From a virus, in the IMG/VR virus record IMGVR_UViG_3300031974_004051, positions 1-64,000 of that record: a stretch of 64,000 nucleotides of DNA; one strand, given 5' to 3'. This document shows positions 36,797 to 61,266 of this stretch, piece after piece; the stretch's first letter is position 1, and each line of letters opens with the position of its first letter. Position numbers and translations under genes: made by a program. The notes beneath the pieces are model-generated. The model worked only from the letters and a program-made list of their open reading frames with translations. It made no database searches and was not told the origin of the DNA.

Positions 36797-36807
36797 AATT
36801 TTTTTAT

Positions 36808-44284: not shown

Positions 44285-45490
44285 TTAAAGTTCATCAAAT
44301 GGATCTTTATCACCATAAAGTTCGTCATAGACCTGCATAGTTTTTTCAAAATTTTCAGCATCTTCTGCAGATATACCTGTGTATGCTTCAATACCCTTTT
44401 CAATACCGTAAACAAGTGCCCCCGAGGTAGTACCGGCCTTGACACCTCTTACTAATTTTTGTTTTGCTGTTAATCCTGTAGTATCAGGGAACATTTTTAT
44501 GACGAAGTCTTTTATTTTTTTGACTGCCTTACTTAAAAAACCAGTAATTTTATTGATAAACTTATCTAATGCACTCCATTTACCTTTTAGTTTACCAAGA
44601 ACCGATTTAATTTTAGATGTTATCCATTGGGTTCCACCTTTTATTTTTTTGATTATATTCATAAACGCCTTATTACCACTCATTACTTTTTTAACTTGTG
44701 ATATCGACCTAACTCCCTTAAACAATCCTCTTGCACCTTTAGCGGCTAACCCCGCACCAAGTAAACCAATAAGATCACAGACAAGGTCTAATATTTTCAT
44801 CCACATTGGAGTCCCTTCAGGATCCCAATCACCACTTATTAATTGGTAGACATCTAATCCAGTTACTAATCCCCAGAATACCATTTGTGGGACTTTTCCA
44901 ATACCCGTTGCAATTAAAATTGCATCAACTATAATACCTATGGTGGAGTAAGCAGCGGCCTTAAACTTCCTTAAAATCCAAAGTAATCCACGTCCAAGAG
45001 CATTCCAAACATCTTTCCATTGTAAGTTAGATAGTTTTGCCCCAAATTCAGCTAACTTCTTTTTCGCTTCAGAGTAAAAATCAGAAATACCTTTTCCCGC
45101 AGCTTTGACTTTTTTACCTAACCATGAATTACTGATCCATTCACCAAAACCTTCTTCTAAAAAGAAATCTCTTAACTCATATAAATTTTGATCGGTACTT
45201 TCTACTAAGGGTGATGATAAAACACTTTCTCTGATCTCACCAAACTCTTCAGTATCATTCTCCACATTTGAAAAGATCGTCTTAAATACACTCATAGACT
45301 CCCATAGATACCCCAAATTCGTCTTTTCTTGAATATCTATGACATGATCATTTAAAATAAAATATCTTTCGTCACAAGTGATGAATGCTTCAAATACAAC
45401 ACCTGGTTCTTTTGGACTACTGACATGACCACTATAATTAAGTATTTGATTATGTCTTTCTAATAATATACCTTGTCTTTGTACTACCAT
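44285..45490 (-). CDS. Large amphipathic membrane protein, 401 aa
   Basis: N-terminal 130 residues soluble; afterwards repeated hydrophobic or amphipathic helices (STIGIIVDAILIATGIGKVP, QMVFWGLVTGL, LDLVCDLIGLLGAGLAAKGA) and Lys-rich helices (FLSKAVKKIKDFVIKMF). It resembles pore-forming or ejected proteins in composition only. It lies upstream of the peptidoglycan-binding protein in the same unit. Confidence 0.7.
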   Translation of the reverse strand: MVVQRQGILLERHNQILNYSGHVSSPKEPGVVFEAFITCDERYFILNDHVIDIQEKTNLGYLWESMSVFKTIFSNVENDTEEFGEIRESVLSSPLVESTDQNLYELRDFFLEEGFGEWISNSWLGKKVKAAGKGISDFYSEAKKKLAEFGAKLSNLQWKDVWNALGRGLLWILRKFKAAAYSTIGIIVDAILIATGIGKVPQMVFWGLVTGLDVYQLISGDWDPEGTPMWMKILDLVCDLIGLLGAGLAAKGARGLFKGVRSISQVKKVMSGNKAFMNIIKKIKGGTQWITSKIKSVLGKLKGKWSALDKFINKITGFLSKAVKKIKDFVIKMFPDTTGLTAKQKLVRGVKAGTTSGALVYGIEKGIEAYTGISAEDAENFEKTMQVYDELYGDKDPFDEL

Positions 45491-45829: not shown

Positions 45830-46396
45830 ATGAAAAAGTTATTTATAATATTCTTATTTTTAATATTTGGTTGTGAAGTCTATGAGGAACCAAGTAACCC
45901 CCAACTTAATCTAAATGGTAGGTGGGACGTAGTAGATATTGATGTAATCATTGATAAAGTCAACTATAATAGTGATGTAATTGTAACTAATGAAGAACAG
46001 GCTTCGGTCTCAAACTTCTTCGTTGTGGGTGTCAATGAGAACGGTGATTTAATATTAACCCAAGATTTCGAAGGAACCATTATAAATCGTAGATTTGATG
46101 AGAACTCAACTCAATGGGAATTTGATTATCATAATTTAATTATTGGTGATCACATATCTACAGAAATGATGGATGTATGGTTTCCTTGTACCTATTGTAC
46201 AGAACAAACCATCATTGAAACCGATTATATGGGTGAAAAAACAAGATACACATTTACTACTGACACCTATGGTGCAATGCCGTCAAATGTCCTTAAATTA
46301 ACCTCCCAAGTCTTCTATACAAATATTTTAATAGATGGTAATCAATATGACAAAGCCATCGAATCACACTTAGAAATAACATTACATAGATTTTAA
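45830..46396 (+). CDS. Exported lipoprotein, lipocalin-like size
   Basis: 188 residues. Signal peptide MKKLFIIFLFLIFGC with lipobox IFGC (Cys15), then NLNGRWDVVDIDVIIDKVNY, a start reminiscent of lipocalin-like Bacteroidota lipoproteins. CTYC at about residues 123-126 could form a disulfide. It would sit on a membrane of the infected cell. Two nt before the DnaA-like gene. Confidence 0.8.
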   Translation: MKKLFIIFLFLIFGCEVYEEPSNPQLNLNGRWDVVDIDVIIDKVNYNSDVIVTNEEQASVSNFFVVGVNENGDLILTQDFEGTIINRRFDENSTQWEFDYHNLIIGDHISTEMMDVWFPCTYCTEQTIIETDYMGEKTRYTFTTDTYGAMPSNVLKLTSQVFYTNILIDGNQYDKAIESHLEITLHRF

Positions 46397-46398
46397 TT

Positions 46399-46767
46399 AT
46401 GAAAGTACATCCTTATGTATATGTTGGGTTGAATAGTCAAACTCAAGCAACATTTAAAAAGAGTAAACATAATAATATCAATCCCAATACTGTACTTAAA
46501 ATTGTGTCTCAAAAAACAGGTGTCACAGTAAATGAAATACTGTCAAAATCAAGAGTGAGAGAAATATCTGATGCGAGACAGATGTTTTGTTATATAATGA
46601 GGGAAAAGTATGGTATGAGATACTCTAAAATAGGTAAGATAATCGGTAGAGATCACGCAACAGCAATTCACTCTTGTAGATCACATAAAGACAAATGTGA
46701 TGTACTAAGAGAATATAGGGAATTAACTAAAGTAACGTGTGAACTCGTTAGAGAGTCTGAGTTCTAA
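46399..46767 (+). CDS. Stand-alone DnaA domain IV-like DNA-binding protein
   Basis: 122 residues. NTVLKIVSQKTGVTVNEILS, then REISDARQMFCYIMREKYGM, RYSKIGKIIGRDHATAIHSC follow DnaA domain IV, including the DHATAIHS version of the DnaA signature that reads DnaA boxes. There is no AAA+ module. It could bind phage or host origins, or act as a repressor or titrator of DnaA boxes. Shares a transcript with a lipoprotein. Confidence 0.85.
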   Translation: MKVHPYVYVGLNSQTQATFKKSKHNNINPNTVLKIVSQKTGVTVNEILSKSRVREISDARQMFCYIMREKYGMRYSKIGKIIGRDHATAIHSCRSHKDKCDVLREYRELTKVTCELVRESEF

Positions 46768-46989
46768 TTACCTCGTTGTAGCCGTATGTAGGACAAACAG
46801 GATCATACCTGATAATAAGATACCTAAAATAGTCTTATCATTTTGTGTAACCTTTGGATTGTCCTTGATGTTTAGTTTATCGAATAAACTTGTAGAAGGT
46901 CTCTTTTTCTCCCAACTTGGTTTATTGGATGCACAACTACCAAATAGGAATATACTACATAACATCAATGCAACTATTTTTCTTTTCAT
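46768..46989 (-). CDS. Small lipoprotein with C-terminal membrane span
   Basis: 73 residues. Signal MKRKIVALMLCSIFLFGSC with lipobox FGSC (Cys19), about 30 polar residues, then a hydrophobic segment TILGILLSGMILFVLHTA at the C-terminus. Lipidated N-terminus plus C-terminal span is the layout of a unimolecular spanin, though it seems too short to cross the periplasm. Its stop abuts the DnaA-like gene stop. Confidence 0.7.
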   Translation of the reverse strand: MKRKIVALMLCSIFLFGSCASNKPSWEKKRPSTSLFDKLNIKDNPKVTQNDKTILGILLSGMILFVLHTATTR

Positions 46990-47027
46990 ACTGAGAAATG
47001 TTGTTGATTTATACGATGAATGATATT

Positions 47028-47399
47028 CTATTCATCATAAATTGTACTATCCATCTTCGAGTACAATTTAATAAACTGTCCCGCTTTTGAGTTTGCCTCA
47101 TCTTCTATTTCACCACCAATATCAGGTGGTTTGGGACCGTCTAAACGACCTTGTTCATATTGTGAGTGATGTACTAACTCATGTGCAATACTTCTCATAA
47201 TATCAACAATATGTCTATTTTTTGAGTTTACTTTAATAACTTTTGTGGGTTGGGAATAGTTGTAATGTGCTGTCGTTTTAAGATCACCTCTACCATTCAA
47301 TAGTTTAATTGAAGGCATAGTTTTAATACCTAACTCATCTTTAACGAATTTTACAAATTCTACAATCCTATTTTTATCCCTTTCCTCTAAGAAACTCAT
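47028..47399 (-). CDS. Zincin-type metallopeptidase-like protein
   Basis: 123 residues. IAHELVHHSQYEQG contains HExxH with following residues typical of small phage or bacterial zincins; GGEIEDEANSKAGQFIKLY may supply the third ligand (Glu). No signal peptide, unlike its neighbours. Target unknown. Preceded by a TATTTATT box. Confidence 0.75.
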   Translation of the reverse strand: MSFLEERDKNRIVEFVKFVKDELGIKTMPSIKLLNGRGDLKTTAHYNYSQPTKVIKVNSKNRHIVDIMRSIAHELVHHSQYEQGRLDGPKPPDIGGEIEDEANSKAGQFIKLYSKMDSTIYDE

Positions 47400-47402
47400 A
47401 CT

Positions 47403-47410
47403 AATAAATA
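47403..47410 (-). promoter_or_regulatory. TATTTATT box, 3 nt before ATG 47399
   Basis: Coding strand TATTTATT, AGT, ATG. Downstream of the exported-protein genes, so the peptidase may have a separate late transcript. Confidence 0.4.
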
Positions 47411-47413
47411 TAC

Positions 47414-47755
47414 CTATTCAATAATAATCTTAGTTTCTTCTAAAATTACACCTTCAGAGGATAAAGACAATTTAAACTCACCCTTAGGTAATGATTTAGT
47501 ATAAATGGTTTTGGTATTTAACCCTAAAAAGGGTTGGAATGTTTCTTTTGATACTGTAGATCCATTAAGATATGAAATAACTAATTGATGTTTCTCTATA
47601 CTCAAAACCTCAAATGAAAATTCTTGTCCGTCAACCACATTGGATATCGATTCTTCAAATATCATTTCATATTGTGGATATGGTTCAACAACCATCAGTT
47701 CATCCTTTTGACAAGAGAATAAAATTAGTAATACGACTACCCAAAGTTTTTTCAT
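47414..47755 (-). CDS. Exported lipoprotein, 113 aa
   Basis: Signal MKKLWVVVLLILFSC with lipobox LFSC (Cys15), then a beta-rich body (YEMIFEESISNVVDGQEFSF). It overlaps the end of the upstream secreted protein by 4 nt. Function unknown; probably a partner of the secreted proteins in this block. Confidence 0.75.
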   Translation of the reverse strand: MKKLWVVVLLILFSCQKDELMVVEPYPQYEMIFEESISNVVDGQEFSFEVLSIEKHQLVISYLNGSTVSKETFQPFLGLNTKTIYTKSLPKGEFKLSLSSEGVILEETKIIIE

Positions 47756-49803
47756 TTTATTATTACATTTATTGTGTTAGCATTCTTATCAACCACTTCT
47801 GATTTTTTCACCGATACCAATCCTAATGTAGAATCAAATGATTGTATTGGTTTGAAATAAATTTTATATTGAACACCATCATTTAAGTTCATAGAACCAT
47901 CTACCGATATAGAACCTACCTTAATATAAGAACTTCTCTTAGCATCAAAACTACTCATCATTGAGGTAGTTTCTAACTTATCATATTCTACTCTTTCGTT
48001 ATCAAACCCAATTCTAAATTCAGAACCGACTAAATTGAAATTATTTTTGGGTAGATCTAAAGTAATGATCATATATTCTTCAGTTTTTTCAATATCTAAG
48101 TCAACCTCTAACAAAGTATTATTTTGAGTAGATGAATTTCTTACACTCATTATTCTTGCTGAAGAAGTTGTTTGTGTTGTTTGAGGTGCAGAATGTGAAA
48201 GGTTTACATCACCCAAGAATGAAACTTTATATTCTAATGTTTGTAGTGTATCCTTTATACCAAATAAAATACTTGTTGATGGTGAATAGGTAGTTTGTGT
48301 ACTCCAATTTGAAGTTGTAGTTCCATCATATTCTGATTTAGGTACAATTCTCATTATCTCTGATAGATACCCATTGAAACCTATATCATTACCTTGTAAA
48401 AAGTTTAACCCTATTTGTGTATCTTGGAAATCAAAATTCTTATCTCCATTTATATCTGCGTTTTGTAATTGAACTCCATTCAAATCTCCTTTGAATCCAC
48501 CATTGATTCCACCACCAGCTAATTCACTAAACCCAGCAACTACATCAGCAACCGTAATGTAATCATCCATAAATTCTTCTGCAGTCCATTGTTCAATACT
48601 ATTAGATGGATTCATAAAAGTTACTTTATGTCCTTTATAGATTTCATTGTCTACAAAAGTAAATTCTGCTTTTATTCCATAGAATCCATTTGCATCTCTG
48701 ATATAAGTTGAAGAAGATGAGTTGGTAAAATCAAATTGAGTATCGGTATTAATATAATACTCTGCCCAATATTGGTCATCTGATTTATATTCTACTACAT
48801 CATCCCACAAATCAAATAGTTGTAGTTTTTTCAAATCACTAAAAGTAAATCCACTCGCAAATTCTCTTTTATCAATACCAACTCTATATCTTTTATTTGT
48901 AGAATCGTAATCATAAATCACACACCACTCAACTGAACCACCAATTGTTGTTCCCTTTTTACCATCTGCCATTTTTAATGTGTTTATGTAATCGGTAATA
49001 TCTTTACTACCATCATCATCTAAATAATAAGATGAGTTCATTGTAGATGTATTTAACCACTCAGTACCAGTTTGAGCAGAAGTTCCATCATAATAAACTC
49101 TGAATCTATATTGTTCTGGTGCTAATTGAGAATGGAATTCTAAATCTAAATCTACTTCAGGATTTGTTGAACTACTTCCACCACTTGGGTCTACATTTGT
49201 CCAAGTTCCGAATTGATGATTAGTACTAATTTGATTATATATTGGAGAACTTGAATTTGCTGGTATTGAATAATAAAAATTATAATATGCTCCACCACCA
49301 TATTCTTGGTATCTAAATTCAAATTCATACCACTTAGTTTTATCTAAAGTTGCAGTTCCATATACCCAAGAACAACAACCCCATTGATATGTCATTGTTT
49401 GCCACTCAGTAGTTCCTACTTCTCTATATCGACTTTCAGAAGAATCATCTGCAACTGTTCTAATATTATAAGTTCCACTTTTATTTGGTTTGAACCAACC
49501 AGAATAAACTACCGCATAAAAATCATTTCCCCAACGAGATGGTAACCCACCTGCTAAACCAGTTGAACCATAAGGTGATACTTCCCCACTATGAGTTAGG
49601 GTTGTACCAGGTTGGTTTGTATCAACCATTGCATCAAATTCTGCAGTTGAATTTGCTCCACCACTATATGATACTCCATTGTAAGTTGAGGATGAACCAC
49701 TTCCATAGTGAGTTTTGTAGGATTTATAATTTATATATCCTTCTCCACTTTGTCCAAATACTAAAGATGGTAATAACAATAATATGTAAAGAAGTTTTTT
49801 CAT
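47752..49803 (-). CDS. Large secreted protein, PA14-like and cohesin/dockerin-like
   Basis: 683 residues. Signal peptide MKKLLYILLLLPSLVFGQ. Residues about 90-190 (VVYSGWFKPNKSGTYNIRTV, then KWYEFEFRYQEYGGGAYYNF) resemble a PA14/GLEYA-type carbohydrate-binding domain. An EF-hand-like loop NADINGDKNFDFQDTQIGLN lies near residue 450. The C-terminal 150 residues, from FLGDVNLSHS to the end, form a beta domain shared with the protein at 53976-55694. It may bind sugars at the cell surface. Confidence 0.75.
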   Translation of the reverse strand: MKKLLYILLLLPSLVFGQSGEGYINYKSYKTHYGSGSSSTYNGVSYSGGANSTAEFDAMVDTNQPGTTLTHSGEVSPYGSTGLAGGLPSRWGNDFYAVVYSGWFKPNKSGTYNIRTVADDSSESRYREVGTTEWQTMTYQWGCCSWVYGTATLDKTKWYEFEFRYQEYGGGAYYNFYYSIPANSSSPIYNQISTNHQFGTWTNVDPSGGSSSTNPEVDLDLEFHSQLAPEQYRFRVYYDGTSAQTGTEWLNTSTMNSSYYLDDDGSKDITDYINTLKMADGKKGTTIGGSVEWCVIYDYDSTNKRYRVGIDKREFASGFTFSDLKKLQLFDLWDDVVEYKSDDQYWAEYYINTDTQFDFTNSSSSTYIRDANGFYGIKAEFTFVDNEIYKGHKVTFMNPSNSIEQWTAEEFMDDYITVADVVAGFSELAGGGINGGFKGDLNGVQLQNADINGDKNFDFQDTQIGLNFLQGNDIGFNGYLSEIMRIVPKSEYDGTTTSNWSTQTTYSPSTSILFGIKDTLQTLEYKVSFLGDVNLSHSAPQTTQTTSSARIMSVRNSSTQNNTLLEVDLDIEKTEEYMIITLDLPKNNFNLVGSEFRIGFDNERVEYDKLETTSMMSSFDAKRSSYIKVGSISVDGSMNLNDGVQYKIYFKPIQSFDSTLGLVSVKKSEVVDKNANTINVIIK

Positions 49804-50345
49804 TAAAATTTATTCTTTGTATTATCTAATCTGAAATAAATTGATGCACCAACATAAGGATATAATTTACTTACACCTGTTTCTGCATCTAATAAATCGT
49901 TTCTTAAACCAACATCCAATGAGAACATTTTATCACTTTTAAATTTGTGTAAAAGTTTGATATCAGTTCCACTAAAGTAATTATCTTTATCAAATTTATA
50001 TCCAAATCCTAAATACCATTTTGATTCAGGTAAGATATAATCAGGTACTTTTACTTCGTATGGTTTATCTACATAAACTGTTTTGATTATCTCAATTGGT
50101 TTTTCTACAATTACTTCTTTTACTACTTCTATTTCAAGTGTATCTGTGATTGTGTTTGTGATATATTTTGGTACAAATATTTCCTTTTCTACGATTCTAT
50201 CTACATAGATACTATCGATTAATGTCTGAAATTTTTCTATTTCTACATACTCGATTTTAGGTGCTCTGTAATATTGGTTAAAGTATCCAACTGCCCATGC
50301 TACTACGATTAATAAACTAATTATAATTATGTGTTTTCTTTTCAT
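49803..50345 (-). CDS. Membrane-anchored envelope protein, 180 aa
   Basis: N-terminal anchor HIIIISLLIVVAWAVGYFNQ, then a long Val/Glu/Lys-patterned stretch (EIEVVKEVIVEKPIEIIKTV) that looks like an extended coil crossing the periplasm, and a C-terminal region of short amphipathic strands (KWYLGFGYKFDKDNYFSGTD, YPYVGASIYFRL) resembling half of a small outer-membrane barrel. Starts 1 nt from the next gene. Confidence 0.7.
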   Translation of the reverse strand: MKRKHIIIISLLIVVAWAVGYFNQYYRAPKIEYVEIEKFQTLIDSIYVDRIVEKEIFVPKYITNTITDTLEIEVVKEVIVEKPIEIIKTVYVDKPYEVKVPDYILPESKWYLGFGYKFDKDNYFSGTDIKLLHKFKSDKMFSLDVGLRNDLLDAETGVSKLYPYVGASIYFRLDNTKNKF

Positions 50346-50357
50346 ATTTTTATCTCC

Positions 50358-52070
50358 TTAAAAGGGTAACTTTGCTCCTATCATAAATGAATTCATCAAA
50401 GGAACAAATTCGTTACTACTATAAATTAATGTCCACCCCGCATTGAACGAAAATCTCTGTGTTAATTGTATTGTAAAGGTATTTGCGAGTATACCTATAA
50501 AATCTTTTGTTGTACTTGTGAAAGAATCAAAATCATTTAACTTTTGTGTGTATGTTATTGGATTCTGTGCACCGATCAAAGCTGGTGAATACATTATCCT
50601 ATCGTTTATTTTTATCATATTTGCATATAAAATATTATACCCTAAAGACGCCATATTTGGGAATCTCTCACCAAATTGATCCTTACCAAACATATATGAG
50701 TAGTTGATACCTACACCAACCGTTCCCCACTTACCTAATGGTTTCATTCTACTAAGAGCCCCTGTTAATGCATTCATTTTAAAATTTCTCATATAAGATA
50801 TTGATGCCCCATCAACCCACGTCACCTCGTAATTTTCATTCATAGTTACTTTAGAGATATTTGTGGAAAGTGATACTTGTTTAATATTATCCCATATCAT
50901 CATATTAACACCATATGACACATCACCGTAAATTGACGATTGACTCGCACCTATATTCAAAACTTGATTATAATCCAATGTTAAAGATTGCATAGACATT
51001 AAATCGGCTTTAAGTTGAATGGGCATAAATCTCTTTTCTTTTTCTTCCTCATCTTCATCTTCTTCATTATCACCCTCTTCAGATTCTTCCTCAGATTCCT
51101 CTTCACTTTCTTCCTCGGATTCTTCTTCACTTTCCTCTTCTTTCTCTTCCTCTTTCTTTTCTTCTTCTTTCTCTTCCTCTTTCTTTTCTTCTTCTTTTAC
51201 TTCTTCTTCTTTATCATCGGATTTCTCTTCGGAGTTATCGTCACTTTCTCCCCCATTATCCTCTTCGCTGTCCGATCCATCTTTTGAATCCCCTCCATTG
51301 TCTTTTTCCTCACCTGAATCTCCTCCATCTCCACCATCTCCTGACGTGTCATCGCCATCACCTGAATTGTCTCCCGAATTATCATTCGATTCTCCCGAAT
51401 CTCCACCATTATCTCCTCCTGACGAATCAGACGATCCCGACGAATCTGAATCGTTTCCTCCATCTGAACCCGATCCCGACGAATCATTTGATTGAGAAGA
51501 TCCACTGCCGTCCCCAGAAGAACTATCTGACCCACCACTCGATGAACCTGAAGAACCTGAATCCGAACCACTCGACGAGCCAGATGAATCAGAACCCGAA
51601 CTCGAAGACGACCCACTACTCGAAGAACTACCCGAGCTCGATGAATTATTTGATGCATTGTTTCCATTAGAACTTGTATTACCTTGTGATGTGGTGTTTG
51701 TTGATCCTGTATTGGTAGAATTAGTTGCATTTGTGGCGGAACTACTAGCGTTATTCGCAGCGTTAGACGCATTTTGGGCGGTTTGTTGTGCTTGTGTTGC
51801 TTGTGTTTGTGCTTGTGAACAGGGTGATAATGCGACCCACCACGCATATTTAGATGCTAACCATTGTTGTAATTCACCATTTACAAAATCTTGATATGTG
51901 AATAATTTCACTTCATTATAAAATGAGACTACTGCAGAACCTGTTTGAAAGTTAGCGGTAACTACCTGAACCTCACCAGTACATCTATCTACGAATGTCT
52001 GTGTAAATGTTTGTCCGTAACTCTCAAAAGAGAAGATAAAAAATAAGATTGCGGTAATGAGTAATCGCAC
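50358..52070 (-). CDS. Outer-membrane barrel-like protein with long Ser/Gly/Asp/Glu linker
   Basis: 570 residues, GTG start at 52070, fixed by the signal peptide MRLLITAILFFIFSFESYGQ. A small N-terminal domain with two Cys (VDRCTGEVQVVTANF, LSPCSQAQ) precedes about 260 residues of low complexity that change from Ala/Asn/Ser to Ser/Gly/Asp and then Glu/Lys. The last 210 residues alternate amphipathic strands and end in a terminal Phe (MIGAKLPF), typical of outer-membrane barrels. Lies 9 nt after the CsgG-like gene. Confidence 0.75.
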   Translation of the reverse strand: MRLLITAILFFIFSFESYGQTFTQTFVDRCTGEVQVVTANFQTGSAVVSFYNEVKLFTYQDFVNGELQQWLASKYAWWVALSPCSQAQTQATQAQQTAQNASNAANNASSSATNATNSTNTGSTNTTSQGNTSSNGNNASNNSSSSGSSSSSGSSSSSGSDSSGSSSGSDSGSSGSSSGGSDSSSGDGSGSSQSNDSSGSGSDGGNDSDSSGSSDSSGGDNGGDSGESNDNSGDNSGDGDDTSGDGGDGGDSGEEKDNGGDSKDGSDSEEDNGGESDDNSEEKSDDKEEEVKEEEKKEEEKEEEKKEEEKEEESEEESEEESEEESEEESEEGDNEEDEDEEEKEKRFMPIQLKADLMSMQSLTLDYNQVLNIGASQSSIYGDVSYGVNMMIWDNIKQVSLSTNISKVTMNENYEVTWVDGASISYMRNFKMNALTGALSRMKPLGKWGTVGVGINYSYMFGKDQFGERFPNMASLGYNILYANMIKINDRIMYSPALIGAQNPITYTQKLNDFDSFTSTTKDFIGILANTFTIQLTQRFSFNAGWTLIYSSNEFVPLMNSFMIGAKLPF

Positions 52071-52079
52071 ATTAAACGG

Positions 52080-52796
52080 TTAATTTTCGAAAATACCTCT
52101 TCTTATCATTCTTGAGACAATTCTAGCAGATGCCGTTTCCAACGCTTTTCTTGTTGTAACACCAATAGATGATTGTCTGAAATCTATTTCTTCTAAATCA
52201 TTTAATAAACCCTCAGTTTTTTTAACAGTATTAGCCTCACCTAAACCACTACCAACATAATAGGTACCGTTAGTGGCGTTTGTGAATCTCACCTGTAACC
52301 CCAATCGTGTCGTTTGTGTTTGAGTGACACCGTCCTTCAATGCAATTACTTCATCTTCAGATACAGAAAAATCATAGATTTCGATCGTCACAAAATATTC
52401 AGCCAATTTTATTTTCCCAAAACCATAGACTTCATTTTCTGAGACACCTTTCTTTGATGCTTTCCACTGAGTTTTCATTCTTTCTTTTATATCGTCTTTT
52501 TCTTCAACGAACTCAAACCTGTTAGTCCAATCTAAGTATTCAATAACCATATTCGTAACACCTAAACCTATTCTTGCATCTTTCAACTCCGGCCACATTT
52601 CATATACTTCATCTGATGCGGAAATCTTTAAAAGTGCAATAGGTATCATCGGTCCCCAATAGTCAGATACATCATCAATCGATTTTTTCTTTTCAAATTC
52701 CGCTTGATAAGTTTCTGATTTTATTGAACCTATTTTTTGACTATAAGTGGTCTGTGTAAAAAACACACACACCACTATTAATAATAATTTTTTCAT
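52080..52796 (-). CDS. CsgG-like outer-membrane secretion channel protein
   Basis: 238 residues from ATG 52796; TTG 52826 would spoil the signal peptide. Signal MKKLLLIVVCVFFTQTTYSQ. ARIGLGVTNMVIEYLDWTNR, FEFVEEKDDIKERMK, AEYFVTIEIYDFSVSEDEVI, LGLQVRFTNATNGTYYVGSG, GEANTVKK and the C-terminal VTTRKALETASARIVSRMIR follow the CsgG family, whose E. coli member forms the nonameric curli export pore. No lipobox is obvious and no curli subunit repeats are nearby. Confidence 0.8.
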   Translation of the reverse strand: MKKLLLIVVCVFFTQTTYSQKIGSIKSETYQAEFEKKKSIDDVSDYWGPMIPIALLKISASDEVYEMWPELKDARIGLGVTNMVIEYLDWTNRFEFVEEKDDIKERMKTQWKASKKGVSENEVYGFGKIKLAEYFVTIEIYDFSVSEDEVIALKDGVTQTQTTRLGLQVRFTNATNGTYYVGSGLGEANTVKKTEGLLNDLEEIDFRQSSIGVTTRKALETASARIVSRMIRRGIFEN

Positions 52797-52819
52797 TCCC
52801 AATAATTTTAAACTTATGG

Positions 52820-53011
52820 TTAACAACAGTAATCAAATACTCCAAATGTAGCATTTGCAACATCAGCTTCTCCTGATATTAAACCATACATAACTGTTGC
52901 AAAACCTAATACAAACATGAATAACAAACCTGTTATCCAAATTTTGAATATATAGTCCATAATCACATAGTCCGATAATTTGTCTTTCCAAATCTCTACT
53001 AAAAAATTCAT
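52820..53011 (-). CDS. Small membrane protein, 63 aa
   Basis: One or two spans (FKIWITGLLFMFVLGFATVM, then YGLISG), polar N-terminus, ends in FGVFDYCC. Lies 23 nt upstream of the CsgG-like gene in the same direction, so probably part of the operon. Confidence 0.65.
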   Translation of the reverse strand: MNFLVEIWKDKLSDYVIMDYIFKIWITGLLFMFVLGFATVMYGLISGEADVANATFGVFDYCC

Positions 53012-53034
53012 AATATAATTTCCTTTTTAAAATG

Positions 53035-53262
53035 TTAATGTGTCTCCTTGACACTCTTTGGTAATCTCCACCCGTGTTTTCTCATCTGCCATGAGTACCA
53101 CCCCGCACCACCAAAGAATAATACTAACCAACCAACGGCTAACCACTCATTAGTTTGCATTTCATCCGATAGTATGATGAAATAGAGATTCAAAACCACA
53201 ATGAGACCTATAAAACCCCATGCTTGACCCCAAACTTTCCACCATTTATTAAAACCTTTCAT
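53035..53262 (-). CDS. Small membrane protein, 75 aa
   Basis: Two spans: WGFIGLIVVLNLYFIILSDE and EWLAVGWLVLFFGGAGWYSW, with Trp-rich flanks and a basic C-terminus. Same operon as the CsgG-like gene. Unknown function. Confidence 0.65.
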   Translation of the reverse strand: MKGFNKWWKVWGQAWGFIGLIVVLNLYFIILSDEMQTNEWLAVGWLVLFFGGAGWYSWQMRKHGWRLPKSVKETH

Positions 53263-53286
53263 ATTGTTTTTTTTAAGTTTAGTTTA

Positions 53287-53589
53287 TTACCAATCCAAAT
53301 CCTCTTTTTCTTTAGGTTTTGGTTTTGGTGCCACATATATCTTTTTTACAACAGTGTCTTTTTTCTGTTCAGGTATATTGATCACTATTTCGGGACCAGT
53401 CACGTTTACCGTTTGGTTATTTTCCTGTTTAACTGTCTCTACAATCTCTTCTTCATCACCGCCAATACCTACAATGGTTTTTACTTCGTCTATAAAGACT
53501 GTACCTAATGTTGTTAATATCACACCAACTCCCGCAATGATTTGATTTTTTAATTCACCAAAAAACCCGTTTTTTTCTTCTTTACTCAT
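53287..53589 (-). CDS. Membrane-associated protein with Pro/Lys tail, 100 aa
   Basis: Hydrophobic segment QIIAGVGVILTTLGTVFIDE (about 16-35), acidic linker, beta-like VNVTGPEIVINIPEQ and a Lys/Pro tail (VAPKPKPKEKEDLDW). Could link the inner membrane to periplasmic partners in a TonB-like manner; that comparison is composition only. Confidence 0.65.
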   Translation of the reverse strand: MSKEEKNGFFGELKNQIIAGVGVILTTLGTVFIDEVKTIVGIGGDEEEIVETVKQENNQTVNVTGPEIVINIPEQKKDTVVKKIYVAPKPKPKEKEDLDW

Positions 53590-53592
53590 ATT

Positions 53593-53970
53593 TTATTGAA
53601 CTACAAAACTTGTTATACCTAATATCTCATTCACATTATTATGGAGTTCAATAGTATATCCATCATTTTCTAATGTGTTGACGTAAACCTTTAATAGGTT
53701 ATCACCTTCCTTCCCATTGACCTTTTCTTGTGAGATTAGGTTTTTACTTATGTCTCTTATCTTGACTCTATATTCACCAGTATATGGTAATTTAATATTC
53801 ATCCTAACTTCATCAGATACTATCACAGATTCTAATTTTATACCCATTAAATCATCGATTACCAAAGATTCGGGTACAACCACATCATCTATAGGTGTTA
53901 GTATATCATCGTCTTTCATACACGACGTTATTGATAATGTTACTATAAGTGTTAATAATAATTTTTTCAT
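53593..53970 (-). CDS. Exported lipoprotein, 125 aa
   Basis: Signal MKKLLLTLIVTLSITSC with lipobox ITSC (Cys17), acidic +2 region, then an Ig-like beta sequence (EVRMNIKLPYTGEYRVKIRD, ENDGYTIELHNNVNEILGIT). Lies 5 nt downstream of the cohesin-like secreted protein and may be its partner. Confidence 0.75.
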   Translation of the reverse strand: MKKLLLTLIVTLSITSCMKDDDILTPIDDVVVPESLVIDDLMGIKLESVIVSDEVRMNIKLPYTGEYRVKIRDISKNLISQEKVNGKEGDNLLKVYVNTLENDGYTIELHNNVNEILGITSFVVQ

Positions 53971-53975
53971 ATTTT

Positions 53976-55694
53976 TTAATTCATTATAAAGTTAATTTGT
54001 GTTCCATCCGCCTTAACTCCTTCGTTAACCTTAAATGTTATCAAACCTGATGTATTGTTTAATTCTACAGTTGGTGTAAAGATTAACTTATAAGGAGTTC
54101 CTGTTTTCACAGTCGCTTCGAAGTTTTGGTCAAATGAACCAATGTTTATTTTTCCATCTTCTTCTAAGTGATTAGAGAAGTTTGTCATTGTATTACCAGT
54201 ATCAAATATTACATTATCTAATACTAATCTTGTTCTATCATATACAATATTAAATTGCGAACCAATCATATCTGCGACATCCGAATTAATTGAGAATATT
54301 ACTTGTCCATCCACCAATTCAGACACTAAATCAATATTTGCTTGTTCTGCTTGATATTTCTCTCCCGCCGCCATACTCATTCTTGCAACTGAAGCATTTG
54401 CTTGAGTTGATGCGGGTATCGTGGTGCCTTCAGTATCAGGTTCCCAAGAGTGTGAGAAGTTAACGTCACCCATAAGAGCATGTACGAAGTTGAATGATTT
54501 ATTAGAATCGGTTGGTTTGAATGTTGCATCAATACCGGCAAAATAACTCCCATTATTATCTACCGTACCAAATGTTGATTTGTTACCACCAGTTTGTAAT
54601 GCTCTACCTTTGTAAGTTATATAATTTGTGTTTCCACTTGTTACACCTTGTAGGTAAGCAAGTATCTCATATGAATCCGAAAAGTCAATCTTACCGTCAA
54701 ACGCTTCATCGTGATATACATTTGCGAGGAATGTTTGAATGTAGTAATCAAATGTAGTTGAAGTACCATTTGGTGTTGATCCCGCCCCGATTGCTTCTGC
54801 AAATACTAAAGCTAAATCAGATACAGTTACTACATTATCCATATAATCTTTTGTTTGATCAACCCAATTCCAAACAAAGTATTCCACATCATTTTCTAAA
54901 CCAGTTACAATTGCTTGACCTGATGCATCATATGTACCTTCTGCAACAATACTTGCTCCTTCATTTGGTTGGTTACCACTACCGATATCTGATTTGTTAT
55001 AAATCTTATAAGTAAAGTGAGTACCATCTCCAATATTATCAGCAATGATATTTGTTGAAATATTAAGAGTTACATTTCCTGCATCACCACCTTGAATTGA
55101 ACCTAAATCAGTTAGAGTTGAATTACCAGTTACACCCACTTGAGTACCATCTGATTCTTTATAGTTCGCCCAATTGGCATTTAATATGTTAGAGTAATTT
55201 GTATAATTTGTATTTGCTTTATCTTTAATAATAAACTCATACTTAATGAACTCAGCACCTGTTTCCAATGCGGTCACATCTTGATAAGTTATCCTTTCAA
55301 CTGACCAATCAGAGTTTGATGAGTATGATGCATCATTGGATAACCAACTAGCATATTGTCCGTCATAATCATTTTGATTCTTTTCTGAATCGGGTGTAAA
55401 CTTATACCCATTCCAAGTATTGTACGCCTTTTGAGCTGAAGTTGATGTTGGTTGCCAAGTTCTTGATATTAAGTTTAATAACTTATTGTTGTACTGAAAA
55501 TCAAACTGATACAATGTGGGTGCGATTGCAGTATTGTTTGCATCCTTACCTTCAAAGTACTGAAGTTTAACTGTCAATGTATCACCAACTTTTGTTACAG
55601 TATTCACCGCAGAATACGCAAGTTGAGCATCCGTCTGACCGTAGACACTTATTGTACAAAGTACACTAACTAATAATGTTAAAATTTTTTTCAT
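53976..55694 (-). CDS. Secreted cohesin-like protein, paralogue of 47752-49803
   Basis: 572 residues. Signal MKKILTLLVSVLCTISVYGQ. N-terminal beta domain TKVGDTLTVKLQYFEGKDAN, then LYQFDFQYNNKLLNLISRTW, is cohesin-like. Dockerin-like acidic loops occur around KIDFSDSYEILAYLQG, and the C-terminus from LMGDVNFSHSW through MIGSQFNIVYDRTRLVLDNV matches the other large secreted protein. Two versions of one C-terminal module in a phage suggest duplication. Confidence 0.75.
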   Translation of the reverse strand: MKKILTLLVSVLCTISVYGQTDAQLAYSAVNTVTKVGDTLTVKLQYFEGKDANNTAIAPTLYQFDFQYNNKLLNLISRTWQPTSTSAQKAYNTWNGYKFTPDSEKNQNDYDGQYASWLSNDASYSSNSDWSVERITYQDVTALETGAEFIKYEFIIKDKANTNYTNYSNILNANWANYKESDGTQVGVTGNSTLTDLGSIQGGDAGNVTLNISTNIIADNIGDGTHFTYKIYNKSDIGSGNQPNEGASIVAEGTYDASGQAIVTGLENDVEYFVWNWVDQTKDYMDNVVTVSDLALVFAEAIGAGSTPNGTSTTFDYYIQTFLANVYHDEAFDGKIDFSDSYEILAYLQGVTSGNTNYITYKGRALQTGGNKSTFGTVDNNGSYFAGIDATFKPTDSNKSFNFVHALMGDVNFSHSWEPDTEGTTIPASTQANASVARMSMAAGEKYQAEQANIDLVSELVDGQVIFSINSDVADMIGSQFNIVYDRTRLVLDNVIFDTGNTMTNFSNHLEEDGKINIGSFDQNFEATVKTGTPYKLIFTPTVELNNTSGLITFKVNEGVKADGTQINFIMN

Positions 55695-56185
55695 AATAAA
55701 TCGTTTATAATATTTTCACATACTCTTTTTAGGGCGATACTCGCTGTTTGTTGATTAAATGTACCGTCAGAACCAACTATTAAAGTAGAGTTAGAAATTT
55801 CTTTACTCTGACCCTTTTGAGTGGTCCTTTTTTTCACTTTTCCATCCACAACAAGTTCACCGATTGCCACTATCTGTGTGACCGATAGTTTATTATGGTA
55901 TACCCCGAAAGATTTACCAATATTTTTTACATCAAAAAAGACCAACTTCACATTAATCTGTGTAGTTGATCTATCTGATAAGTCATAATCTAAGTCTAAT
56001 AGAATTTCTTCAAGGATGTTTCTCACACCCATTGATAGGTTTCGATTACCCGCAAATTTACCCATTCGGATTTCGTTAGTGACCTCACCTATTTTAATCG
56101 GGTTTTGTCTATTTTCTCCTAACGGAAAAAGTAGGAATAGACATATAAAGAATATCTTTACGACGTTTAATGTCGCTATTTTCAT
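55691..56185 (-). CDS. Exported protein, possibly CsgG-related, 164 aa
   Basis: From ATG 56185 the N-terminus MKIATLNVVKIFFICLFLLF is a good signal or anchor; ATG 56233 is an alternative with 16 extra polar residues. The body (NLSMGVRNILEEILLDLDYD, then TTQINVKLVFFDVKNIGKSF, TASIALKRVCENIINDLL) recalls the alpha/beta fold of CsgG-like or similar envelope-assembly proteins. Overlaps the next gene as ATGA and heads the exported-protein operon. Confidence 0.6.
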   Translation of the reverse strand: MKIATLNVVKIFFICLFLLFPLGENRQNPIKIGEVTNEIRMGKFAGNRNLSMGVRNILEEILLDLDYDLSDRSTTQINVKLVFFDVKNIGKSFGVYHNKLSVTQIVAIGELVVDGKVKKRTTQKGQSKEISNSTLIVGSDGTFNQQTASIALKRVCENIINDLL

Positions 56186-56279
56186 TGTAACACCTTTTAT
56201 TGTTTTATGATTAGATGGTAGTTCGAAAACCATCTTTCATCTATTTACTTTTCTTGAGTCAGTTACCTAACTCATTTAC

Positions 56280-56648: not shown

Positions 56649-57284
56649 TTAGGAAAGTCTACCGTGTACTTTTTGTGGGTCTACCGCTCTTTTGTTAATA
56701 TGTACCGCATAGTGAAGATGTGGTCCCATAGAATTCCCCTTATGAGGGTCTCTACTTCCACCACCTGTGTAACCAATTAATTGACCTTTCGAGACTTCTT
56801 GTCCTTTACTTACAACCCACCTTCTTACGTGACAGTAAATAGTCTCGTATTCACCGTGTTTGATTTTTATTAAACCACCACATTTACCTTTATCATCATA
56901 AGCCTTAGTAACAACACCATTTGCGGGTGAATAGATAGGTGTGCCCGATCTTGCTCTTAGATCAACACCCTTATGAAACTTTGTGGCGTTACCCCCAATA
57001 TTTCTCGGACCGAAAGGACTGTTGATTTTTGTGTTATTAATGGGCCACATGTCTATAGTCTCAAAATCCTTTAAATCCATATTTTCGAAATCGAATTCAG
57101 GATTCATAACAATTTTATCAAAAAATGCCTTACCAAGTGTCAGGTCTGTATCGTTTTCAGCGTCTTTTTTCAAACCAGCCCATGTGGTCAAAAAATCGGT
57201 CAGTGCGTCTTTTTTGTCCTCTTTAAGAACATGACCCTTTTTGATAATATTTATAAGTTGAGACTCTTTTAGTTTAATTACCAT
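56649..57284 (-). CDS. M23-family metallopeptidase (LytM-like)
   Basis: 211 residues. The C-terminal 120 residues form the M23 domain: SPFGPRN, HKGVDLRARSGTPIYSPANG (first His and Asp zinc ligands), YCHVRRWVVSKGQEVSKGQL and the HxH motif in GPHLHYAVHINKRAVDP. It cleaves peptide cross-links in peptidoglycan. No signal peptide; the N-terminal 80 residues are helical. Probably a virion-borne wall hydrolase or second lysin. Confidence 0.9.
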   Translation of the reverse strand: MVIKLKESQLINIIKKGHVLKEDKKDALTDFLTTWAGLKKDAENDTDLTLGKAFFDKIVMNPEFDFENMDLKDFETIDMWPINNTKINSPFGPRNIGGNATKFHKGVDLRARSGTPIYSPANGVVTKAYDDKGKCGGLIKIKHGEYETIYCHVRRWVVSKGQEVSKGQLIGYTGGGSRDPHKGNSMGPHLHYAVHINKRAVDPQKVHGRLS

Positions 57285-57945: not shown

Positions 57946-58089
57946 ATGTCAGTATTTGGTATGTCAGATGAGGAAAAGAAGAAAATCCTCGAAAAACACA
58001 AGACAGCAACAAAAAATCATTATACAAAACAAAATGATTTAAAAAAGGGTATTCAGGTACCTGAAAAAAAAGAGAAACCCTCAGAGTAA
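57946..58089 (+). CDS. Small Lys-rich protein, 47 aa
   Basis: MSVFGMSDEEKKKILEKHKT, then ATKNHYTKQNDLKKGIQVPE and KKEKPSE. The EEKKKILEKHK helix recurs in short phage proteins. It follows its neighbour by 7 nt, and its stop codon lies in the loop of the following terminator, so it looks real despite its size. Confidence 0.65.
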   Translation: MSVFGMSDEEKKKILEKHKTATKNHYTKQNDLKKGIQVPEKKEKPSE

Positions 58090-58103
58090 GAGGGTTTTTT
58101 TTA
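58075..58103. terminator. Bidirectional terminator at a gene-end overlap
   Basis: AAACCCTC (58075-58082) / GAGGGTTT (58090-58097) followed by T8; on the other side an A-rich tract serves the glycan operon. It lies inside the coding ends of both converging genes. Confidence 0.8.
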
Positions 58104-59172
58104 TGAATGTAAGTGCGGATTCAATAACATCGTCCATATCATAATATTTATATTCCGCCAACCTACCACCGAAATAAACATCCTTTTCTTTATCTGCCAA
58201 TTCTTTATACTTGTTGTATATTTCAGTATTTTCATCATCATTGACTGGATAATATGGTTCTGTTTCTTTTGCATTGTAGTCAATCGGAAATTCCCATGTT
58301 ACCCAAGTGGAATCTGATTCCACATTCTCAAAGTGTTTATGTTCTATAGTTCGTGTAAATGGAATTTCTTTATCGGTATAATTCATCATTACTACACCTT
58401 GGTAGTTATCAGTATCTATTTTTTTATGTTCAAATCGTGTTGTTTTATATTCTAACTCACCAAACTTATAATCAAAATATCTATCGATTGGACCTGTGTA
58501 AATAACTTTATTGTGATTTGGTAAATTGGAACCAAAATAATCAGTGTCTAATCTCACATCAATACCATCTAATAATTTTTCAAAGATTTGGGTGTACCCC
58601 CCAATTGGAATCCCTTGGTACTTATCATTGAAATAATTGTTATCATAAGTAAATCTTACAGGTAATCTTTTTATAATTTCTTTAGGTAAGTCCTTCGCAT
58701 CTTTTCTCCATTGTTTTTCTGTATATCCTTTGATTAGTTTTTCATATACGTCCGTACCAACAAGTTTGATTGCCTGTTCTTCTAAATTTTTTGGATTATC
58801 TATATGAGAACTTTGTTCTTCTATAATTTCTTTTACTTGTTGTGGATGTGACACACCCCACAACTTTGAGAATGTCCACATATTAAAAGGTAAGGAATAG
58901 ACCTCACCCCTGTAGTTAGCAACCGGTCTTAAAGTAAAATTATTAAATTCGACATATTGATTTATCCATTTCCAAACTTCTTCGTTCGATGTGTGAAAGA
59001 TATGGGGACCGTAATCATGTACATTAATACCATCTCTGTTAGAAGTATAACAATTACCACCAATATGATTTCTGTTTTCAATTACACAAACTTTCTTACC
59101 ACTATCTGTAAGTTCTCTTGCACATATTGAACCAAAAAATCCACTACCAACTATTAAGTAGTCATAAATCAT
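58081..59172 (-). CDS. glf: UDP-galactopyranose mutase
   Basis: 363 residues from ATG 59172 (ATG 59181 is also possible). Flavoenzyme that interconverts UDP-galactopyranose and UDP-galactofuranose. FAD-binding YLIVGSGFFGSICARELTDS, then VCVIENRNHIGGNCYT, DGINVHDYGPHIFHTSNEEV, the GYTEKQW motif and IPIGGYTQIFEKLL are all family landmarks, and YKYYDMDDVIESAL is near the C-terminus. Last gene of a five-gene glycan operon, so the glycan likely contains galactofuranose. Confidence 0.95.
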   Translation of the reverse strand: MIYDYLIVGSGFFGSICARELTDSGKKVCVIENRNHIGGNCYTSNRDGINVHDYGPHIFHTSNEEVWKWINQYVEFNNFTLRPVANYRGEVYSLPFNMWTFSKLWGVSHPQQVKEIIEEQSSHIDNPKNLEEQAIKLVGTDVYEKLIKGYTEKQWRKDAKDLPKEIIKRLPVRFTYDNNYFNDKYQGIPIGGYTQIFEKLLDGIDVRLDTDYFGSNLPNHNKVIYTGPIDRYFDYKFGELEYKTTRFEHKKIDTDNYQGVVMMNYTDKEIPFTRTIEHKHFENVESDSTWVTWEFPIDYNAKETEPYYPVNDDENTEIYNKYKELADKEKDVYFGGRLAEYKYYDMDDVIESALTFIKKTLLL

Positions 59173-60514
59173 AGATCCCATAAATTTGGAAAAGACATTT
59201 TTCAAAATCTAAACACGCATGAGGGTAGACCCCCACACTAACTAATGAATGTATTTTTTGGTAGAACTCAATCGGATGTTTCTTTATTAACCTTCTACTG
59301 ATGATGTGTTGTGCCCCAGGTACATTGTAGGATGGGAAACTAATACTAATACCCATAGTTTCACCAAAAGATCTCATTTCATTATCAATACCCTCATACT
59401 CCATATTATATCTACTTATATTCCCCAATGGTAAAAATTCTTGTTTAAAATCAAATTTATTTATTTGATCAACCACATTATGACAATGGTCAAAGGGGTT
59501 TCCTTGTACAAATGCCATGTAATTAGGTAAATTATCGTAGTTATCTATAATATATGTGAGAAATGTATGTGTTTCTCTCCCCACATTTGGTAGGTTGTGT
59601 TCAAAATGATCACTATCAGATTCATTTTTATTATACACTATATGATCGTGTTTTAAGTATGCTGTCCAACTTATATCCTCATTGTATTTCGCAACAATGA
59701 CTTTTAAATTTTTGTCACTCGTAAATAAATCGATGTATTCTCTCCACCCACATTGAATCAAATTGTATTTCTCAGGATCTCTAAGGTATAGAAAATCAAA
59801 CATCTTTTCGTCACTACCTACGTATCCGTTATTGATCGACTGATTAACAACATCTTCAAATTCCACACAAACTTTTTCTACACAACTTTTAGGTACAAAT
59901 ACAGAACCCCCCTGTATGTACCTCATTTGAGATAATGCGTGTTGTTCGTAATATTCCTCACCAACCCTAACATAGGGATGGTGACAAAAGAAAGTTACTT
60001 TCTTATTATCTAATTCATTAATTTTTTGAGTATCTGGCCAACTGATACCTAATTCAGGTTTATCATTTCTGAGTACACCCGCGTCTGCCCATACAAATAA
60101 ATCAGTATTAAATAGATTTCTTTTATGTGCATCTAAAATGTAATATAATTTGGAAAACATAACCACATTGTAAAGTGGTTTAGTCATCTCAGGGACTTGG
60201 AATTGAATCTTTGATTTGAATTCTTCGCTCGACATTAGAGTATTAAGAGGGTTGAAGAATTTTTTATATCCTAAAATATTCTCTAAAGGTTCAATCACAA
60301 TAATTGTCTTCTCTAAATCGGGGTCAACTTCTTTTCTAAATTCAATAATTTGTTTTTTGAATTTATCTTCGGTATAGATAACCATGTTAGTATCTAAAAA
60401 CAATATGTTCCTCATCCACATAAGATAAGTGTGGTAAGACATAGTGAAATTATCCCAATTATCTCTACCAATATCAAATATTGCCGTTACAATTGTTGTG
60501 TTTTTTATATCCAT
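59162..60514 (-). CDS. HtrL/WlaTC-like glycosyltransferase fused to a DUF3431-like domain
   Basis: 450 residues from ATG 60514. The N-terminal 280 residues (TTIVTAIFDIGRDNWDNFTM, SKLYYILDAHKRNLFNTDLF, VWADAGVLRN, ... GSVFVPKSC) resemble HtrL/YibB/WlaTC sugar-transfer proteins. The last 150 residues (THTFLTYIIDNYDNLPNYMA, FVQGNPFDHCHN) match DUF3431, another glycan-linked domain. The fusion could couple two steps. Overlaps glf by 11 bp. Confidence 0.75.
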   Translation of the reverse strand: MDIKNTTIVTAIFDIGRDNWDNFTMSYHTYLMWMRNILFLDTNMVIYTEDKFKKQIIEFRKEVDPDLEKTIIVIEPLENILGYKKFFNPLNTLMSSEEFKSKIQFQVPEMTKPLYNVVMFSKLYYILDAHKRNLFNTDLFVWADAGVLRNDKPELGISWPDTQKINELDNKKVTFFCHHPYVRVGEEYYEQHALSQMRYIQGGSVFVPKSCVEKVCVEFEDVVNQSINNGYVGSDEKMFDFLYLRDPEKYNLIQCGWREYIDLFTSDKNLKVIVAKYNEDISWTAYLKHDHIVYNKNESDSDHFEHNLPNVGRETHTFLTYIIDNYDNLPNYMAFVQGNPFDHCHNVVDQINKFDFKQEFLPLGNISRYNMEYEGIDNEMRSFGETMGISISFPSYNVPGAQHIISRRLIKKHPIEFYQKIHSLVSVGVYPHACLDFEKCLFQIYGIYDL

Positions 60515-61266
60515 GCCCAATCAACCACTATATTCTTATGCCAAATTCTATTGTTTTCAAAATCGAACAGATTTGATGTATCTTCCGATGTTATCAGACT
60601 ACTAATTTTCATACCATGTAAATTAAGTACAGTCGGTACGAAACCCTCACCATACCCATGATAACCCTCATTGTTTAACTCAACAAGTTTCTTCATCGCT
60701 CGATTAGAATATCGGACTGTTGGGAAAAAGGATCCAAACCACTCAGTGACCTCACTCGGTAATGTGTCACCATCACCAGGAAACCTCTCTAACCACATGT
60801 GTGAAGATGTTGTTCTACCATCAATAACAGGGACATTTGGTTGACTCTCAACACCAGGTTTTTTAAAAACAAAATAAGATATGAAATCTGAATCATCCTC
60901 ATCAGTTTGTGACAAAAACTGATTCCAATCATCTATCCTAACATCATCGTCAAAAAACCAATAGTATTCATAATTAGGATTCGATAAATAAAAATTTATC
61001 ATTCTTAAATGTGCGTGGAACCATATGATGTTTCGATTACCTTGACTATTCCAATAATGTTTTTTACTAACCTCGTGTGGGAAGTTTAAATTATCCCTAA
61101 CATCTTTTTCAGTGTATGTAAAACCCTTCTCAAATGATTGGTCTCTTGTGATGTCGATAATTAAATCTTTATCATAACCCTCTTTAGTAATTAATGGTAA
61201 CCATTCCTCATCCAATTTATTGTGTTGGTGAGAAACTGTACACATACAAGCAATTCTTTTATTCAT
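60505..61266 (-). CDS. Glycosyltransferase-like protein with DDD motif
   Basis: 253 residues. RIACMCTVSHQHNKLDEEWL opening, NYEYYWFFDDDVRIDDWNQF with the DDD metal motif of a GT-A fold, and TEWFGSFFPTVRYSNRAMKK, GYHGYGEGFVPTVLNLHGMK on the acceptor side. It resembles unassigned GT-A proteins in phage and eukaryote-virus glycan loci. Overlaps neighbours by 10 and 8 bp. Confidence 0.7.
   Translation of the reverse strand: MNKRIACMCTVSHQHNKLDEEWLPLITKEGYDKDLIIDITRDQSFEKGFTYTEKDVRDNLNFPHEVSKKHYWNSQGNRNIIWFHAHLRMINFYLSNPNYEYYWFFDDDVRIDDWNQFLSQTDEDDSDFISYFVFKKPGVESQPNVPVIDGRTTSSHMWLERFPGDGDTLPSEVTEWFGSFFPTVRYSNRAMKKLVELNNEGYHGYGEGFVPTVLNLHGMKISSLITSEDTSNLFDFENNRIWHKNIVVDWAWI

Follow-up and report, generated by a model that had tools for sequence, protein, structure and literature searches.

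A conserved phage gene module with two CsgG-related proteins, a FapF-like barrel and cohesin-like cargo, and its possible role at the surface of infected Bacteroidota cells

CsgG genes in phages and the present locus

Genes for CsgG and CsgF have been described in pelagimyophages and in the methylophage Melnitz, and surface capture or lysis has been proposed as their function (PMC7029224, PMC9004378). As no cargo was recognised, phage CsgG genes have been puzzling from the pelagimyophages onwards. Here, we analyse a block of genes at positions 45830-56233 of a stretch of 64000 bases (the window) taken from the 65990-base IMG/VR virus record IMGVR_UViG_3300031974_004051. The host of this virus is a flavobacteria-like bacterium. 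In the block, the CsgG superfamily stands in a strict module with clear cargo, the surface location of which is predicted from domains and signals. We consider it rather probable that this conserved phage module serves to remodel the surface of infected Bacteroidota, adhesion or receptor masking being the likeliest use. The genes of the module are as follows.

47414-47755, minus strand: LIPO2, predicted lipoprotein (C-Q-K-D-E-L) with a domain resembling a C-terminal sorting domain (CTD-like), directly after COH2
47752-49803, minus strand: COH2, 683 residues, signal peptide, PA14/GLEYA-like N-terminus, dockerin-like motif, C-terminal cohesin-like domain
50358-52070, minus strand: OMP, predicted outer-membrane barrel protein of 570 residues (AlphaFold2 and fold search)
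52080-52796, minus strand: CSGG, CsgG-like protein with a signal peptide and no lipobox (AlphaFold2 fold match; KSB1 homologue)
53287-53589, minus strand: p108, single N-terminal membrane segment, Pro/Glu/Lys-rich tail, invariant final Trp (alignment; 30 of 30 relatives)
53593-53970, minus strand: LIPO1, predicted lipoprotein (C-M-K-D-D-D) with a CTD-like domain, directly after COH1
53976-55694, minus strand: COH1, putative cohesin/dockerin-like surface protein of 572 residues, signal peptide (family census and alignment)
55691-56185, minus strand: CSG2, short second CsgG-superfamily protein with an N-terminal signal (profile alignment; 30 of 30 relatives)

Like the pelagimyophage and Melnitz sets, the module contains a CsgG-superfamily gene of a tailed phage and no recognised curli subunits. 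However, phage HTVC008M and the Melnitz phages have an ordinary, recognisable CsgG (37-40% to E. coli), whereas CSGG escapes the Pfam CsgG profile, and the module further includes a FapF-like barrel, another protein related to CsgG and cohesin/lectin cargo. In the same host phylum, the T4-like marine Bacteroidetes virus contig TARA_ERS488589_N000003 was reported to carry curli genes and 'ubiquitous surface proteins', and attachment of infected cells was suggested (PMC7198788). This contig, known here by description only, may or may not hold the present module. According to the accessible part of another report, cryophages encode type IX cargo, that is proteins with type A sorting domains, one of them with PA14; these are variable single genes, and no ring or barrel module is mentioned there (PMC7468147). 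Outside phages, the Caulobacter holdfast anchor HfaABD resembles the module in having a CsgG-like protein, HfaB, under the outer membrane and adhesin partners outside, but the accessible part of its description reports no barrel, cohesin or type IX parts (PMC6707917). Single parts are known in phages and the combination seems to be new; it was not found in the literature searched, which held no paper on phage cohesins and none on virion proteomics of Flavobacterium phage immuto, a cultured relative. As a tentative proposal, and one we hold with some doubt, a phage envelope machine built from two CsgG-superfamily proteins and a FapF-like gated barrel would display self-linking, glycan-binding cohesin proteins in conjunction with host type IX secretion, and would be of a kind undescribed in bacteria or phages.

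The original prediction, made from the letters of the window, had described ten exported proteins within about 10 kb, four of them lipoproteins, in one minus-strand block around a CsgG-like pore. All the open reading frames (ORFs) that it named are present. A crude scan for N-terminal export signals (positive n-region followed by a hydrophobic core) retained 8 of the 15 ORFs of the block and none of the 68 that lie elsewhere in the window (Fisher p = 1.6e-7). Two proteins missed by the scan were added: that at 46768-46989 was displaced by an overlapping ORF, and that at 55691-56185 was hidden because its annotated start is over-long. Ten proteins of the block thus have an N-terminal export signal or anchor, in agreement with the count first proposed, and three further small proteins have one or two membrane segments each. 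The four lipobox proteins were all located (45830-46396, 46768-46989, 47414-47755 and 53593-53970). Most of the block does lie on the minus strand, though not all of it, since the lipoprotein gene at 45830-46396 and the neighbouring gene at 46399-46767 are on the plus strand.

Searched against Pfam and PHROG, the window proteins returned almost no matches, and relatives were therefore needed for the analysis. Sub-threshold Pfam matches (DUF3244, DUF1348 and similar) were taken as noise, with the exception of those to DUF3244 and Por_Secre_tail that recur for the lipoproteins. When IMG/VR was scanned with the CsgG-like alignment, at least 231 relatives were obtained among the matches listed; 80 of them were kept. 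Clustering of neighbours revealed the order COH - p108 - CSGG - OMP - COH - CSG2, or rearrangements of it. Enough flanking sequence was available for 51 loci; dereplication on the CsgG-like protein (95% identity) reduced these to 30. COH, p108, OMP and CSG2 are all present beside CSGG in each of these 30 relatives. As the loci were anchored on CSGG, the partners are shown to follow CSGG and not the reverse. Judged by this co-occurrence, the block is a conserved module, not a coincidence, and the gene set that was to be looked for in other phages recurs in many phage contigs.

This gene set sits unannotated in many related viruses. Among annotated phage records, the module occurs only in isolates of the cultured immuto, where the annotation gives gp013 as a protein with a lectin domain and gp015 as a cohesin protein, while gp017 (CsgG-like) and gp018 (barrel) are called hypothetical. 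In the clade of the window, COH (median identity 34-49%) and OMP (45%) diverge fastest, and CSGG is at 79%. The N-terminal binding domains of COH vary among relatives, being of the lectin or the PA14 type.

A bacterial origin of the module was considered and rejected: 297 Bacteroidota genomes contain no close chromosomal relative, the only close relative being on a phage-like contig in one of them (G003). Two contigs in Flavobacterium and Bacteroidetes metagenome-assembled genomes (MAGs; L111, L112) carry an endolysin-like gene together with module genes, and look like phage contigs binned into MAGs, by contamination or after a recent infection. In a candidate KSB1 MAG, a CsgG-like lipoprotein, a linker-barrel-like protein and a CSG2-like protein follow one another in the order of the module (L113:787-3591). 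These three genes may represent a cellular counterpart of the module, from which they differ in lying on a bacterial MAG contig, in the weak similarity of the barrel and in that no COH was seen. Besides this source, weak CsgG-like matches (E <= 1e-6) occur in 27 of 82 KSB1-phylum genomes; three of the neighbourhoods were read, and no clear CSG2 or barrel neighbour was found in them apart from one marginal match to the CSG2 profile.

Two CsgG relatives and an outer-membrane barrel

No match to Pfam CsgG was obtained with the window protein (CSGG), with the 31 aligned family members (window copy included) or in ten phage records; the cut-off is passed only by the distant KSB1 homologue (25.7 against 20.8 bits), which is 31% identical to CSGG and scores 150 bits against the CSGG profile. 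The AlphaFold2 model is of moderate confidence (pLDDT, the per-residue confidence score, 71; pTM, the score for the overall fold, 0.63), and every one of its 19 best fold matches in the PDB is a CsgG (E 8e-8), aligned over 222-242 columns. In a viral structure library, only one match falls below 1e-3, to a protein that bears the name CsgG. By its modelled fold, its KSB1 homologue and this library match, CSGG is a member of the CsgG superfamily. No PDB sequence was found with a profile built from the first six CsgG-like proteins, nor with the KSB1 protein.

The CsgG-like pore that had been proposed is therefore retained as a fold, and less so as a pore. The two hairpin regions of CSGG are each about 5 residues shorter than those of E. 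coli CsgG, and the second has low model confidence. Their charged fractions are higher (0.24 and 0.31, compared with 0.16 and 0.24 in E. coli CsgG), although these counts gave no decision on membrane insertion. The lipobox is absent from the window protein; a lipobox-like site exists in 33 of 82 relatives.

The protein at 55691-56185 is itself related to CsgG, which corrects the earlier picture of a block with one CsgG-like protein. The CSG2 and CsgG-like families align with each other (hhalign, 97.6%), and one KSB1 protein (L113:2938-3591) matches both profiles. The annotated start of CSG2, at 56233, is probably too early, as relatives begin at an internal ATG, at 56185. PDB profile searches with CSG2 and with the barrel gave low-complexity or chance matches only and were not used.

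OMP, the linker-barrel protein of the original prediction, is modelled by AlphaFold2 as a signal peptide, a small N-terminal domain, a long helix, a disordered acidic linker of about 215 residues, a short helix and a 12-strand barrel ending in F. Within the barrel, most ten-residue blocks have a pLDDT of 80-93. The best PDB fold match is FapF (E 4e-8), with NanC, KdgM and autotransporter barrels scoring close behind. FapF, the amyloid transporter of Pseudomonas, consists of a coiled coil, a disordered linker, a helical plug and a 12-strand barrel (PMC5557850), so that the parts follow the same order in both proteins. However, OMP has an extra N-terminal domain and a much longer acidic linker, and identity is at most about 10%; the likeness is therefore one of fold and layout, not of membership in the Fap system. 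Neither FapB/C subunits nor the FapD protease have Pfam matches among the proteins of the block, and the same holds for curli CsgA/B repeats, CsgE and CsgF, the lack of curli subunit repeats having been noted at first. The barrel part of the earlier description thus holds, with the addition that OMP is a separate outer-membrane barrel, so that the block contains two channel-like folds.

Cargo proteins and their routes to the surface

COH1 and COH2 have a C-terminal cohesin-like region in common, as seen by alignment, and in one relative (L002) a C-type lectin stands in place of the N-terminal domain of COH2. Among 49 dereplicated proteins of the COH family, Pfam recognises Cohesin in 17, Por_Secre_tail in 14, Lectin_C in 10, Dockerin in 6, PA14 in 4, GLEYA in 4, CHU_C in 2 and the SprB repeat in 1. 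The proteins first called cohesin-like are thereby borne out by homology; mutual binding of the cohesin and dockerin domains recognised in these relatives is predicted from the domains. In immuto gp015, cohesin and the Por_Secre_tail sorting domain are both above cut-off.

With an iterated sorting-domain profile, a type IX sorting domain is detected in COH at 57 of 81 loci. At a further 16 loci the LIPO family takes its place; the two never occur together, and eight loci have neither. Four of these eight have a divergent CTD-like lipoprotein after COH, and two end at a contig edge. Each of the 22 LIPO genes immediately follows COH or another LIPO. In the clade of the window, the sorting domain is absent from COH, and a small lipoprotein bearing a CTD-like domain comes after each COH. 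Both LIPO proteins of the window (CMKDDD and CQKDEL) match C-X-K-(D/E)2-X, the surface-export signal that follows the cleavage site in Bacteroidota lipoproteins (PMC5080379). LIPO proteins mostly outscore unrelated small proteins on the sorting-domain profile; the window copies reach 7.9 and 7.6 bits, for a 99th percentile of 4.1 among unrelated small proteins. The four divergent lipoproteins, left among the decoys, ranked top with 13.5-15.1 bits. The simplest reading of these sequences would be that the sorting-type domain is carried by the cargo in most phages and by a separate surface lipoprotein in others. Four phage records of 159-270 kb each have their only Por_Secre_tail match in a frame of 634-646 residues, the size of COH; in G010 and L041 the coordinates of this frame coincide with COH. 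SprA is encoded by two MAGs that hold module-bearing phage contigs.

The original prediction had suggested that the CsgG-like pore carries the cohesin-like proteins. In such a model, the module would be a secretion system proper, of the type VIII or Fap-like kind, the ring and the barrel forming the channel that exports COH. The CsgG and FapF folds are both those of polypeptide exporters, co-occurrence with COH is constant, and in Caulobacter HfaA and HfaD need HfaB, a relative of CsgG, for their placement on the cell surface, according to the accessible part of the source (PMC6707917). However, CsgG and FapF pass unfolded chains and COH is built of folded domains, and the hairpins of CSGG and the scattered occurrence of a lipobox-like site, described above, also speak against a channel. 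Export through the ring is less favoured because most of the cargo has a sorting domain for another exporter. We regard a dedicated channel for COH as quite unlikely. Host routes probably bring the cargo to the cell surface; they are the better-supported path because of the sorting domain at most loci and of the adjacent CTD-like lipoproteins in the window's clade.

The lectin and cohesin proteins could also be thought of as tail-associated virion components, and of the block as belonging to a tail cluster. Adsorption is another possible function of lectin and PA14 domains, and the block is flanked by a gene weakly similar to tape-measure genes (44285-45490) and by an M23 peptidase gene (56649-57284). 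Yet proteins assembled in the cytoplasm would not be expected to bear signal peptides, lipoboxes or type IX sorting domains. Profile searches gave no virion family match for the proteins of the block, no PHROG virion match was found for the module proteins tested, and the head genes of this tailed phage lie elsewhere (see list below). Because of the export signals and of the lack of a virion family match, virion membership is rejected as very improbable, in keeping with the exported, non-virion surface system first envisaged.

A model for the infected cell, and neighbouring genes

Considering these properties, the following mechanism may be envisaged for remodelling of the infected cell. COH proteins, judging from their signal peptides, would leave the cytoplasm via Sec. 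In most relatives, the sorting domain would then direct them to the outer face through host type IX secretion; in the clade of the window, as suggested by gene position, they would be held outside by the partner lipoprotein, with its CTD-like domain and surface-export signal. Cohesin- and dockerin-like parts would join the cargo proteins to one another as a surface layer or fibre, and the swappable lectin or PA14 domains would bind glycans. Beneath or around the cargo, CSGG, CSG2, the FapF-like barrel and p108, a small inner-membrane protein, may form an envelope complex serving as anchor, gate or secretion channel. Infected cells would thereby adhere to other cells or particles, or their receptors would be masked against other phages. 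Superinfection exclusion, surface remodelling and aggregation are possible roles.

Several observations weigh against this model. COH1 and COH2 of the window have no direct Pfam match and no C-terminal sorting domain. The similarity between LIPO and the CTD is weak (hhalign, 82.7%; 7.6-7.9 bits for the window copies), and at two of the loci with neither feature (L019 and L020) no lipoprotein was seen behind COH. The either-or distribution of sorting domain and LIPO largely follows phage lineages, and therefore does not represent many independent events; it is suggestive, not statistically strong. Finally, 14 of the 30 fully flanked relatives have an endolysin gene in the flank, and 23 have either an endolysin or a holin-like gene, which would also fit lysis, holin-like being a label given by appearance, with no family match.

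According to this last possibility, the ring, the barrel and the small membrane proteins would open the outer membrane late in infection, as a Bacteroidota counterpart of spanins. Such a role was proposed for CsgGF by the Melnitz authors (PMC9004378), and the anchor-stalk-beta layout of the protein at 49803-50345 could bridge both membranes. With an endolysin in the flank of 14 of 30 relatives, the late egress envisaged at first is conceivable. However, 16 of the 30 relatives have no endolysin in the flank; in the window, the endolysin and a gene with two transmembrane segments lie about 10 kb away (35915-37035), and lysis has no need of lectin, PA14, cohesin or type IX sorting domains. A lysis or egress module appears unlikely to us, and adhesion or receptor masking likelier.

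The other genes of the block and the head genes of the window are as follows.

45830-46396, plus strand: predicted lipoprotein without family match; module membership uncertain
46399-46767, plus strand: protein of 122 residues with a DnaA C-terminal helix-turn-helix domain (E 1e-20), adjoining the preceding gene
46768-46989, minus strand: small predicted lipoprotein (FGSC lipobox) with a weak, sub-threshold spanin-like PHROG match; module membership uncertain
47028-47399, inside the block: putative HExxH-type metallopeptidase without signal peptide
49803-50345, minus strand: N-terminal membrane anchor, stalk and C-terminal beta-rich segment, from the sequence possibly an inner-to-outer membrane bridge; homologues in 5 relatives
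52820-53011, minus strand: small membrane protein of the tm63 family, with homologues at the matching position in relatives
53035-53262, minus strand: small membrane protein of the tm76 family, with homologues at the matching position in relatives
19574-21289: major head protein
24969-26783: portal
26835-28613: terminase

Near the module in 21 relatives, a protein different from the putative metallopeptidase is found, mostly signal-bearing and with a HESYH motif in the examples read (e.g. L043:14348-14815). Nuclease-like proteins with signal peptides occur near the module in 10 loci (L005:9935-10513; L021:453-1076, with an Endonuclease_NS match); an exported nuclease might attack the DNA of competing phages. 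Upstream of the module, a glycan-related cluster on the minus strand (58081-63339) encodes a UDP-galactopyranose mutase (GLF), an HtrL_YibB/DUF3431 protein and a GlcNAc glycosyltransferase, and may also alter the surface of the infected cell. Elsewhere in the window, the phage encodes a tmRNA (40580-40966, tag VDSKVAVA) close to four tRNA genes, and a ClpB/ClpA-like AAA protein (33754-35769). Beside the latter gene lies that of a small protein (33221-33592), and a similar one stands beside a chaperonin-like gene in another locus (L004).

Since immuto, which is cultured on Flavobacterium sp. LMO8, has the module, the use of envelope machines by phages is directly testable. If the cargo does glue infected cells together or hide their receptors, the picture of infection in aquatic Bacteroidota would change. 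In many contigs, genes listed as hypothetical also obtain a functional label.

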